Part shown: one piece after another, positions 1-63,376 of the stretch | Layout: the number at the start of each line of letters is the position of its first letter | Position numbering within the stretch: position 1 is the stretch's first letter | Notes under the pieces: generated by a model | Seen by the model: the letters and a program-made list of their open reading frames with translations, nothing else | Databases searched by the model: none | What the model was told of the DNA's origin: nothing | Translations under genes and position numbers: made by a program | NCBI GenBank assembly: GCA_025642075.2 | Contig: JAODUO010000577.1 | Coordinates: forward strand, 51,001-115,000 | Reading direction: 5' to 3' | Source: Ridgeia piscesae | Lineage: Eukaryota; Annelida; Polychaeta; Sabellida; Siboglinidae | Length of the DNA stretch: 64,000 nt

Positions 1-168
1 CCTGCAATACATAAACCAAGTCTGTGTGTCCTGCCTTCCTGCAATACATAAACCATGTCTGTGTGTCCTGCCTTCCTGCAATACATAAACCATGTCTGTG
101 TATCCTGCCTTCCTGCAATACATAAACCATGTCTGTGTGTCCTGCCTTCCTGCAATACATAAATCACA
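1..168 (-). repeat. 37-bp tandem array carrying the acceptor of GIT exon 7
   Basis: About 4.5 copies of a 37-bp unit. On the minus strand each unit contains TTTATGTATTGCAG followed by GAAGGCAGGACACACAGAC. With the AT left over from exon 6 this reads M-K-A-G-H-T-D-M, corresponding to the ARQAGHHEL region of vertebrate GIT, so each unit is a 3' splice site plus exon 7 start. The first acceptor in transcription order opens at 149. The array runs off the window, so the authentic exon 7 body is not seen. Confidence 0.75.
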
Positions 169-61900: not shown

Positions 61901-63376
61901 ACAACCATGTGGTGTTGTAACTATCACAGCTACAACCCCATGGTGTTGTAACTATCACAGCTACAACCCCCTGGTTTTGTAACTATCACAGCTACAACCC
62001 CATGGTGTTGTAACTATCACAGCTACAACCCCATGGTGTTGTAACTATCACAGCTACAACCATGTGGTGTTGTAACTATCACAGCTACAACCCTGTGGTG
62101 TTGTAACTATCACAGCTACAACCCTGTGGTGTTGTAACTATCACAGCTACAACCCTGTGGTGTTGTAACTATCACAGCTACAACCCTGTGGTGTTGTAAC
62201 TATCACAGCTACAACCCTGTGATGTTGTAACTATCACAGCTACAACCCTGTGGTGTTGTAACTATCACATCTACAACCCTGTGATGTTGTAACTATCACA
62301 GCTACAACCCTGTGGTGTTGTAACTATCACAGCTACAACCCTGTGGTGTTGTAACTATCACAGCTACAACCCTGTGGTGTTGTAACTATCACAGCTACAA
62401 CCATGTGGTGTCGTAACTATCACAGCTACAACCCTGTGGTGTTGTCACTATCACAGCTACAACCCTGTGGTGTTGTAACTATCACAGCTACAACCCCGTG
62501 GTGTTGTAACTATCACAGCTACAACCCCGTGGTGTTGTAACTATCACAGCTACAACCCTGTGGTGTTGTCACTATCACAGCTACAACCCTGTGGTGTTGT
62601 AACTATCACAGCTACAACCCCGTGGTGTTGTCACTATCACAGCTACAACCCTGTGGTGTTGTAAACATAGTTTGATGTGGGAAGAAAATTCTACCTGGTC
62701 ATGTCCAGACCTGATAGTTCTGATACACACACTATCTTGCTGAAGTGGGAGACGAATAGTTACCAAGCTAAAGAAATATTCAATCTAAACATTTGCAGAG
62801 AACGTTATGCATTATCATGACACAGTAAATAGCAGACGTACCTGTATTTTTGCGCCCTTGTACTTGATGACCCCAGGAACAGTGGTGAGGGTTGTAAACT
62901 CATACGCTGCGACCTCCGAGTACACTCCGGCCAAGTTACTCAACAAAGTAGACTTGCCCACTGAAGGGAACCCTACACAACAGACATAACAGCTGGTACT
63001 TAAATACCTTTTCGTCTAAATTTTGCTACATTTAGAATTTCCTTAACTTTGGTAAACGTAAGTACTTCATTTATAAAAAGTCTTGTTAAGCATACATAAT
63101 GCATACATATATTGCAGACACAAATGTGTCAAAAAAGTCGGTTCTAAAAAGTATGCATACCATGTTTCTTTTGAAAAATTATTTCATCATAGCAAGCGAA
63201 TTGGTCTTACCTACAAACCCAATTCTGGCATCTCCAGTTTTTGCCACATCGAACCCTTCCCCTCCCCCTCCGCCACCTCCTTTTGGTTCAATCAGTTCCC
63301 GGCGCAGCTTTGCCAGTCGAGCTTTCAGCAACCCCAGATGACCCATCGTTGCTTTGTTTTTCTGGGTCCGAGCCAT
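46875..63376 (-). CDS. DRG1: DRG1, developmentally regulated GTP-binding protein 1
   Basis: Coding pieces on the minus strand, 63376-63211, 62972-62842, 60676-60607, 59314-59145, 57856-57671, 50911-50799, 49818-49695 and 46974-46875, join in phase (one apparent 1-nt error in 49818-49695). Order: [31 protein letters not shown]1 loop [10 protein letters not shown]3 [66 protein letters not shown]4 NKID, G5 region [14 protein letters not shown], and a TGS domain [12 protein letters not shown]...[16 protein letters not shown]...[12 protein letters not shown]1 is an OBG-like GTPase that binds ribosomes with its partner DFRP1. The usual about 14 residues before MARTQ are not seen, so a short first exon probably lies to the right. 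Identity is secure. Confidence 0.95.
46960..48062 (-). repeat. 50-bp array of DRG1 last-exon acceptor junctions
   Basis: About 22 copies. On the minus strand each holds ATGTTCTGTTGACAG (acceptor) followed by the exon start TGCACTGGTGTGG (or TGACACTGTGCTGG in variants). Some units lack the internal ACACAACATGT segment, giving shorter repeats. Confidence 0.95.
48450..49506. repeat. 12-bp/24-bp array in DRG1 intron
   Basis: Variants of ACTCATAGGTCC and ACTCATATGTCC. The left part is an irregular 12-mer mix; the right part settles into a 24-bp dimer with CCCCTCATAGGTT. Long open frames arise from the 12-nt periodicity. Confidence 0.95.
49695..49818 (-). CDS. DRG1: DRG1 exon with an apparent +1 frameshift
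   Basis: Acceptor CTTTTAG, donor GTGAGT. Reads [15 protein letters not shown] in one frame and [20 protein letters not shown] then NLLKEFKY in the next. The two are joined by a CCCCC run (GGGGG on plus, about 49777-49781); one C fewer restores both the frame and the exon phase (124 nt observed, 123 expected). Confidence 0.9.
49819..50798. other. DRG1 intron with short 47-bp array and SINE
   Basis: 50250-50395 has three copies of a 47-bp unit (GGTCCTAGGGTTAACGATTA...), directly followed by a SINE. The remainder is AT-rich intron. Confidence 0.8.
50385..50680 (+). mobile_element. tRNA-derived SINE, copy 3
   Basis: TGGCATGGTGGGTAGAGCAG with B box GGTTCAAACCC, followed by the family body in diverged form (AAATTGCTCAAGTTCACTTA, GACAGTGGTGGATTTTTTG, CTCCCAGATTAG, CTAGGGAAGAAAAC). 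The most diverged of the three copies. Confidence 0.8.
50799..50911 (-). CDS. DRG1: DRG1 exon encoding [20 protein letters not shown]
   Basis: Acceptor CCACTCCAG, donor GTAAGT. Contains the G5 SA element ([20 protein letters not shown]) and ends LVR plus AT. Confidence 0.95.
51255..55045. repeat. 40-bp tandem array, about 95 copies, DRG1 intron
   Basis: Highly homogeneous unit containing ACTTCATGGATACCTCTCAC followed by ACACCATGACTGGTCCTTAC. The main variants are ACACC/ACGCC and CCTTAC/CCCTAC; the ACGCC form dominates from 53100 to 54900. Not anchored at either exon. Confidence 0.97.
55046..55560. other. Unique DRG1 intron sequence between two arrays
   Basis: No repeat or coding signal recognised. 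Confidence 0.6.
55565..57710 (-). repeat. 58-bp array of DRG1 donor junctions carrying the G4 motif
   Basis: 37 junction copies from 57671 down to 55583, 2088 nt = 36 x 58 with no net indel. On the minus strand each unit is 39 nt of exon (ATC TAC CTG CTC AAC AAG ATA GAC ..., reading [13 protein letters not shown]) followed by donor GTAAATGTGTACAAACTAC. The only common substitution is TCTATAGAG versus TCTGTAGAG. Confidence 0.97.
57671..57856 (-). CDS. DRG1: DRG1 exon with G4 motif NKID
   Basis: 62 codons, phase 0 at both ends, acceptor TTGACAG, donor GTAAAT. Encodes [40 protein letters not shown], and [17 protein letters not shown]. The donor chosen is the first of 37 copies. Confidence 0.95.
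57851..58440 (-). repeat. 17-bp array of DRG1 acceptor junctions
   Basis: Diverged copies of GTGACACATGTTGACAG on the minus strand: TGTTGACAG is the acceptor and GTGACAC the exon start. Most regular at 57850-58010 and 58200-58280; elsewhere mixed with TTGACAGC and AACAAACATG variants. Confidence 0.88.
58568..59150 (-). repeat. 14-bp array of DRG1 donor junctions
   Basis: About 41 copies of TCTGTGGTGAGATG on the minus strand: TCTGTG is the end of the exon (Ser-Val) and GTGAGATG the donor. Many copies read TGTGTGGTGAGATG. The array begins at the authentic junction 59145/59144. Confidence 0.95.
59145..59314 (-). CDS. DRG1: DRG1 exon encoding VLDVLKPL...GGINLTSV
   Basis: Acceptor TTGTTGCAG, donor GTGAGA. 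Encodes [40 protein letters not shown] and [16 protein letters not shown]. Confidence 0.95.
59325..59795. repeat. 25-bp array adjoining DRG1 acceptor
   Basis: About 18 copies containing AGAACCACGTAGGCACACAG, starting about 10 nt upstream of the acceptor on the minus strand. Confidence 0.95.
60140..60575. repeat. 39-bp tandem array in DRG1 intron
   Basis: About 11 copies containing CTTACAGCGAAACACATCAG; a multiple of three, so open ([13 protein letters not shown]) but intronic. It ends about 30 nt from the donor of the next exon. Confidence 0.95.
60607..60676 (-). CDS. DRG1: DRG1 exon with G3 motif DLPG
   Basis: Acceptor [28 protein letters not shown] then VIT plus one base. The donor is GTCTAG, weak but the only one that keeps phase with VARTC of the next exon. 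Confidence 0.88.
60765..62675. repeat. 31-bp tandem array, about 61 copies, DRG1 intron
   Basis: Unit contains TAACTATCACAGCTACAACC followed by CTGTGGTGTTG. Composition shifts from CCCCTGG and CCCATGG forms (left) to CCTGTGG forms (right). Not at a splice site. Confidence 0.96.
62842..62972 (-). CDS. DRG1: DRG1 exon with G1 P-loop
   Basis: Acceptor GTGTAG, donor GTACGT. Encodes [40 protein letters not shown] and AKIQ. P-loop and switch I region. Confidence 0.96.
63211..63376 (-). CDS. DRG1: DRG1 exon encoding MARTQKNK...ARIGFV
   Basis: Encodes [40 protein letters not shown] and [15 protein letters not shown] plus one base; donor GTAAGA. The ATG is preceded by TTTGAAG, usable as an acceptor. 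Because vertebrate DRG1 has residues MSSTLAKIAEIEAE before MARTQ, this is more likely exon 2 than the true start. Confidence 0.92.

Follow-up and report, generated by a model that had tools for sequence, protein, structure and literature searches.

Minisatellites spanning exon-intron borders in genes of the tubeworm Ridgeia piscesae: probable annelid counterparts of amphioxus mirages

Introduction

How is an exon defined when its own border is repeated tens of times in the neighbouring intron? The question is raised by a stretch of 64,000 nucleotides (hereafter the window) from Ridgeia piscesae, a vestimentiferan tubeworm (Annelida), covering positions 51001-115000 of contig JAODUO010000577.1 (hereafter C577) in an assembly of 628,048,202 bases and 4,875 contigs. 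In three genes of the window, GIT, ANKRD13 and DRG1, minisatellites lie across splice junctions, and their repeated unit contains the donor or acceptor site together with part of the adjoining exon. We consider it probable that these arrays are splice-junction minisatellites of the kind known as mirages, which would have arisen by random tandem duplication, grown into the introns and been tolerated there, with a modest bias toward exon borders. A preliminary description of the window had gone further, holding that minisatellites are systematically built from splice junctions.

Tandem repeats of this kind were reportedly described in amphioxus Adh3 by Canestro et al. in 2002 (NAR 30:2871), a study known to us through the papers that cite it. 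The amphioxus Adh precedent mentioned in the preliminary description does exist and is on point: mirages is the name given to tandem repeats spanning exon-intron borders, in amphioxus Adh3 and then in globins and PGBD5 (PMC3087553; PMC3902484; these and the other papers below are cited from the parts of their text available to us). Among the globins, BflGb6 and BflGb9 carry them (PMC3087553), and a further mirage, in troponin C, is cited within the PGBD5 paper (PMC3902484).

Splice junctions within tandem arrays in three genes

Arrays were called with Tandem Repeats Finder (TRF), whose 77 rows were merged by hand into 36 arrays, dinucleotide and low-scoring rows being excluded. Exon borders were placed with a purpose-written spliced protein-to-genome aligner, for which the references were DRG1 and ANKRD13 from Lamellibrachia satsuma, ANKRD13 from Paralvinella, a GIT2 chain (PDB 6jmt), and human GIT1 and VCP. 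At all 50 exon edges modelled in the window, GT or AG stood on the intron side.

Ten arrays of the window reach from an intron across the exon edge and take in 7-40 nt of exon; together with the array at GIT exon 7, an exon whose first base lies in the neighbouring DNA, 222 bases left of window position 1, they make up 11 straddled junctions, two in GIT, five in ANKRD13 and four in DRG1 (Table 1). The spliced alignment and TRF thus return the same 11 junctions as the preliminary description, which was also right that both donors and acceptors are affected, here and in other genes, and that no single element is spreading, the units being unrelated by eye. The exon copies that it had put at 6-39 nt are present, with the slightly shifted range given above by TRF borders. 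Two ANKRD13 arrays that it had placed exactly at intron +1 start, according to TRF, at +6 (25098, the donor being at 25093) and at +5 (29315, donor at 29311). Three additional window arrays stop 2-5 nt short of a junction.

Most of the intron length in the window is repeat. The 23 introns add up to 49,360 bp and shrink to 17,445 bp once each array is reduced to one unit, so that arrays account for about 65% of intron length; GIT intron 5 is nearly filled by one 8-kb array, and collapsing its two arrays to single units leaves an intron of 63 bp. Arrays are not limited to introns, as the intergenic DNA that separates ANKRD13 from the convergent DRG1 (40895-46740) is likewise rich in minisatellites. 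Could the arrays be remnants of the birth of the introns themselves, by tandem duplication of exon sequence according to the AG/GT duplication model? Authors have put forward such an origin both for the mirages of amphioxus and for tandem repeats at human exon borders (PMC3087553; PMC2812944). In the introns that we read by eye, the intron end opposite the array consists of other sequence or of an unrelated array, and the intron therefore seems older than the array, which makes this origin very improbable here.

Table 1. Genes and tandem arrays in the window and straddling arrays found elsewhere (window positions; straddling arrays include the exon edge)
Feature	Position	Strand	Unit and copies	Exon edge	Exon part	Remark
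GIT gene, exons 2-6	427..14315	-				spliced alignment; continues left of window
ANKRD13 gene, exons 1-14 modelled	17496..40532	+				spliced alignment; exon 7 reads damaged, exon 7 donor outside model
DRG1 gene, exons 2-9 modelled	46885..63376	-				spliced alignment; exon 1 outside model; exon 8 frame break
GIT exon 7 acceptor	1..163, +244 bases leftward	-	37 bp x 11		23 nt	straddling
GIT exon 6 acceptor	560..851	-	8 bp	557	no exon copy	abutting
GIT intron 5	852..8815	-	37 bp x 215		no exon copy	end 16 nt from exon 5 edge
GIT exon 3 donor	10134..12069	-	24 bp	12063	7 nt	straddling
ANKRD13 exon 3 donor	25098..27792	+	22 bp	25092		from intron +6
ANKRD13 exon 6 donor	29315..30109	+	30 bp	29310		from intron +5
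ANKRD13 exon 8 donor	31831..32745	+	28 bp x 33	31851	21 nt	straddling
ANKRD13 exon 10 acceptor	33190..35009	+	54 bp x 34	34972	38 nt	straddling
ANKRD13 exon 11 donor	36056..36484	+	42 bp x 10	36077	22 nt	straddling
ANKRD13 exon 12 acceptor	37351..37624	+	47 bp x 5.8	37607	18 nt	straddling
ANKRD13 exon 14 acceptor	38894..40350	+	54 bp x 27	40324	27 nt	straddling
DRG1 exon 9 acceptor	46962..48061	-	50 bp x 22	46974	13 nt	straddling
DRG1 exon 6 donor	55563..57710	-	58 bp x 37	57671	40 nt	straddling
DRG1 exon 6 acceptor	57849..58291	-	17 bp	57856	8 nt	straddling; diverged copies
DRG1 exon 5 donor	58562..59151	-	14 bp x 42	59145	7 nt	straddling
DRG1 exon 5 acceptor side	59327..59790	-	25 bp	59314	no exon copy	12 nt from exon edge
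SMG6 donor	C577		31 bp			straddling
TLC-like gene acceptor	C577		43 bp			straddling; presumed name
4E-T-like gene, two donors	C577		28 bp and 42 bp			straddling; presumed name
INO80B-like gene donor	C577		26 bp			straddling; presumed name
VCP acceptor	off C577		51 bp x 53		19 nt	straddling; gene with 16 introns
AFG2-like donor			39 bp x 39		about 12 nt	straddling
PSMC2-like donor			54 bp x 3.3		about 12 nt	straddling

Recurrence in other genes

Overall, 19 straddled junctions were found. They comprise 11 donors and 8 acceptors and are spread over ten genes and four contigs. Eight of them belong to seven genes beyond GIT, ANKRD13 and DRG1, which bears out the recurrence that the preliminary description had claimed for the process. 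C577 as a whole is dense in repeats: between positions 1001 and 265000, arrays of period 6 or more (TRF) cover 113,420 of 259,000 readable bp. Five straddled junctions lie on this contig outside the window genes and were found by reading the sequence at coding-like segments beside arrays; as they were selected for adjoining arrays, they were kept out of the tests against gene-model nulls. The identity of SMG6 is supported by EST1 domains (Pfam); five homologous proteins, with 46-68% query cover, were left unused for splicing. The other three genes are what we take to be INO80B-like, 4E-T-like and TLC-like genes, Pfam giving no match for these pieces.

Moreover, 15 further exon matches were chosen by homology only, and these yielded two straddling donor arrays (AFG2-like and PSMC2-like) and two repeats that start at a donor without an exon copy. 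The latter are two diverged 40-bp copies at L038:1659-1738 and, by eye, a 13 bp x 4.2 array at L033:1445-1499; they are possibly early or decayed stages. In EEF2, arrays were absent from the two introns read (1.3 kb, L051).

Consequences for splicing and coding

When DRG1 exons 2-7, which include three straddled junctions, are joined at their exon-proximal sites, the result is a single open frame in which 268 of 278 residues are identical to L. satsuma DRG1. Splicing at the copy one unit away would cause a frameshift or a stop at seven of ten window junctions, including the DRG1 exon 6 acceptor, where that copy has no AG; at the remaining three, all in ANKRD13, it would give an open in-frame insert. 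Judging from these frames, the normal mRNA is predicted to use the exon-proximal site.

The decoy copies can nevertheless mislead annotation. In the public ANKRD13 model P0001 (NP493_577g01046), the 54-bp array of the window is translated as an 18-residue repeat in 16 copies; the model splices into the exon 10 array at its first acceptor and terminates within it, and the 16 translated copies are therefore an annotation artefact. Gene models in Ridgeia can thus be wrong where such arrays occur.

It could also be supposed that selection retains arrays at junctions, since repeated splice sites might aid or regulate splicing. In the 11 arrays compared, an intact GT or AG is kept by at least 288 of the 321 copies, the authentic ones included. 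The splice dinucleotides, however, are no better conserved than the remainder of the unit: they depart from the consensus at 33 of 642 bases (5.1%; 609 match), as against 369 of 10,633 (3.5%) at the remaining positions. Decoy sites are neither specially kept nor clearly purged. Taken with the broken frames or stops predicted one unit away at seven of ten junctions, this renders retention by selection highly unlikely.

Preference for exon borders

The register of the unit relative to the splice site was analyzed in 12 arrays (5 donors, 7 acceptors). The exon share of the unit ranges from 0.26 to 0.75, with a mean of 0.51, and is compatible with a uniform distribution (KS P 0.33), so that the position of the breakpoints seems independent of the splice site; unit length is a multiple of three in 5 of the 12. 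A cause linked to R-loops, proposed in the preliminary description, finds no support in strand composition, as GC skew makes the coding strand G-rich in only 13 of 25 intron arrays, and the R-loop signature was not found among them.

Whether arrays favour junctions depends on the null that is used. Ten of the 36 window arrays end no more than 60 nt into an exon; when the whole set was shifted circularly 6,390 times, the mean was 1.6 and the highest count 7. Without the limit on exon overlap this null was uninformative (mean 11.3 against 10 observed straddling arrays), because long arrays moved across exons mostly straddle them. When whole arrays were placed randomly within their own gaps with 45 nt of overhang, straddling reached P 0.072, and straddling or abutting P 0.016; we retain this as the most conservative result for the window. 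Placing one unit anywhere in the collapsed intron space of the window gave 2.4 expected straddling arrays against the 10 observed (P 4e-5). With a random seed in the array's own collapsed intron, the window, the rest of GIT and VCP together have 12 straddling arrays among 42, against 7.4 expected (P 0.04). The extension alone (rest of GIT and VCP, 14 arrays) shows no excess, with 2 of 14 straddling against 2.7 expected. Several of the GIT introns used rely on weak alignment; without four arrays in doubtful GIT introns, the result is 12 of 38 against 7.1 (P 0.03). If arrays up to 20 nt from a junction are included, the figures are 19 of 42 overall against 11.8 (P 0.006), and 3 of 14 against 4.0 in the extension.

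A test free of gene models was based on the donor motif GTRAGT, which occurs in 13 of 98 array units of C577, against 3.3 expected from non-array windows of equal length. Inside the window, the excess falls short of significance (3 of 32 units against 1.2, P 0.11). Similarity of the non-straddling arrays to their own junctions gave no signal, but four positive controls were missed too, because the array itself was masked, and the test was left unused.

Altogether, the comparison of array ends with random positions, made for the window, GIT, VCP and the C577 motif, gives an excess in the window and, for the motif, outside it, while the extension gives none. What stands of systematic building from junctions is a roughly two-fold excess in the window; 18 of its 28 intron arrays do not straddle a junction, and further large arrays are intergenic. 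The excess at exon borders is modest and of uncertain size, and is not near-exclusive building from junctions.

Under the explanation that we favour, a segment of 14-58 bp that chanced to span an exon border would have been duplicated in tandem, in random register, and slippage or unequal exchange would then have lengthened the array on the intron side, as with the other arrays of this minisatellite-rich genome. The exon would still be defined by the copy of the splice site nearest to it, so that the mRNA would remain unchanged, and the other copies would be intronic decoys under no visible selection. A modest and unexplained bias would bring arrays to exon borders at a higher rate than seeding at random predicts.

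Several results sit uneasily with this explanation. With a single ancestral unit seeded randomly in each array's own collapsed intron, 4.7 of the 28 intron arrays of the window are expected to straddle, against 10 observed (P 0.008); for arrays straddling a junction or within 20 nt of it the figures are 7.8 and 16 (P 0.0003). Outside the window, GTRAGT is found in 10 of 66 units against 2.1, about fivefold, with none of 1,000 draws as high. Given the straddling excess and this enrichment, random duplication alone may not suffice. Moreover, exon-derived parts vary more across copies than intron-derived parts (275 of 5984 bases off consensus against 94 of 4649 in 11 arrays; nominal Fisher P 2e-13), and splice dinucleotides are slightly more variable than the other positions (nominal Fisher P 0.036). 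Both differences are unexplained; the copies are non-independent, which inflates the P value for exon against intron divergence, and we leave that value uninterpreted. Finally, the use of exon-proximal sites is itself a prediction.

The same excesses could point to seeding directed at junctions, in which slippage coupled to transcription or linked to R-loops, or an event of the splicing machinery, would prefer splice sites. Straddling arrays at both ends of DRG1 intron 5 and of ANKRD13 intron 11 would fit such seeding, as would the window excess and the motif enrichment outside it. However, no constant register between unit and splice site was detectable (n=12), donors and acceptors are affected alike, the coding strand shows no prevailing G-richness, neither the extension nor the window motif test adds a significant excess, and arrays in the middle of introns and between genes are numerous. 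On this evidence we regard junction-directed seeding as unlikely. It is likewise doubtful that a border-preferring process, coupled to transcription or splicing, seeds minisatellites across the genome, arose independently of amphioxus and rebuilt most of the intron length. If it did, many junctions would carry numerous intact decoys, among which the spliceosome would still pick the exon-proximal one.

Comparison with known repeats at exon borders

Like the amphioxus mirages, which consist of minisatellite-like units over 5' and 3' exon borders, many with AG or GT, the Ridgeia arrays contain the border and exon sequence within the unit (at all 19 junctions), occur at both border types and keep their splice signals at 609 of 642 bases in 11 arrays. 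Amphioxus units of 10-160 bp are reported to leave the regular mRNA undisturbed. The two cases differ in that amphioxus is a cephalochordate whose mirages have few units (3 and 6 in BflGb6, at most 7 in PGBD5), whereas arrays in Ridgeia reach 84 copies and 3.4 kb, and several junctions per gene are affected. Allelic and somatic instability has been reported for amphioxus, while the likeness of the Ridgeia arrays rests on sequence anatomy.

Two other systems are partly similar. In human genes of segmental duplications, internal tandem repeats at exon-intron boundaries have minisatellite units of about 30 bp and have been linked to novel introns and alternative splicing (PMC2812944); they vary between recent paralogs and half lie inside coding exons, whereas the Ridgeia genes are conserved ones that have their copies on the intron side. 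The minisatellites in intron 1 of earthworm metallothionein genes (PMC12783039) are likewise annelid and intronic, with monomers of 25-216 bp, but the available part of that paper leaves a copy of an exon or splice site in the unit unmentioned. Literature searches on tubeworm or annelid minisatellites and introns found no annelid mirages among the matches listed, and the available text of the Riftia genome paper mentions no tandem repeat, minisatellite, satellite or intron. Within the literature searched, the Ridgeia arrays, classed as mirages by their anatomy, would be the first case in an annelid or in any protostome.

Assembly and gene models

Could the repeats have been inflated or misplaced during assembly or polishing? 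Judged against relatives, errors seem to be present. ANKRD13 exon 7 (30980-31784) is out of frame with respect to L. satsuma and the following 30 residues or so were not found, reflecting either assembly error or real damage. The acceptor of DRG1 exon 8 was moved by hand to TTTTAG, ten bases upstream of the aligner's choice, because this site restores the expected residues; downstream of it the exon (49695-49818) has, in this assembly, a frame break relative to L. satsuma, which is again either an assembly error or real. Straddling arrays occur at neither exon. Moreover, the published R. piscesae assembly is Illumina-only (574.96 Mb, contig N50 10.42 kb; PMC9921365). Its size shows it to be different from the present assembly of 628.05 Mb, which, judging from contiguity, is presumably based on long reads. 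Against an artefact stand the differences among copies (TRF matches of 66-99% in straddling arrays), the occurrence of the pattern on four contigs with different units, and a window sequence without any N; the amphioxus PGBD5 repeats, for their part, held up when Sanger data were re-examined and Illumina data added (PMC3902484). We therefore give an artefact very little weight as an explanation of the pattern, and note that array copy numbers may be inexact.

As to the surroundings of the genes, the source contigs of L. satsuma ANKRD13 (P0070) and DRG1 (P0121) are both recorded at 218,492, which suggests that the ANKRD13-DRG1 neighbourhood is conserved between the two species. ANKRD13 intron 2 contains a piece of a Mutator-like transposase (PF20700, 22216-22821), and a reverse-transcriptase-like open frame was recognized by eye at 18023-18621. 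Elsewhere in the assembly, contigs C4406 and C118 are 98.8% identical over 2.4 kb, with a differing AT-rich repeat and no minisatellite there; they are probably two haplotypes.

Conclusions

The Ridgeia genes extend mirages beyond amphioxus, as the same anatomy is found in an annelid, with arrays much longer than the cited globin cases. This suggests that mirages arise generally where splicing meets a high turnover of minisatellites. The arrays also illustrate how introns can grow through tandem duplication and, with consecutive runs of about 5 to 80 nearly identical splice sites in competition, they make these genes natural test cases for how the spliceosome chooses among equals.

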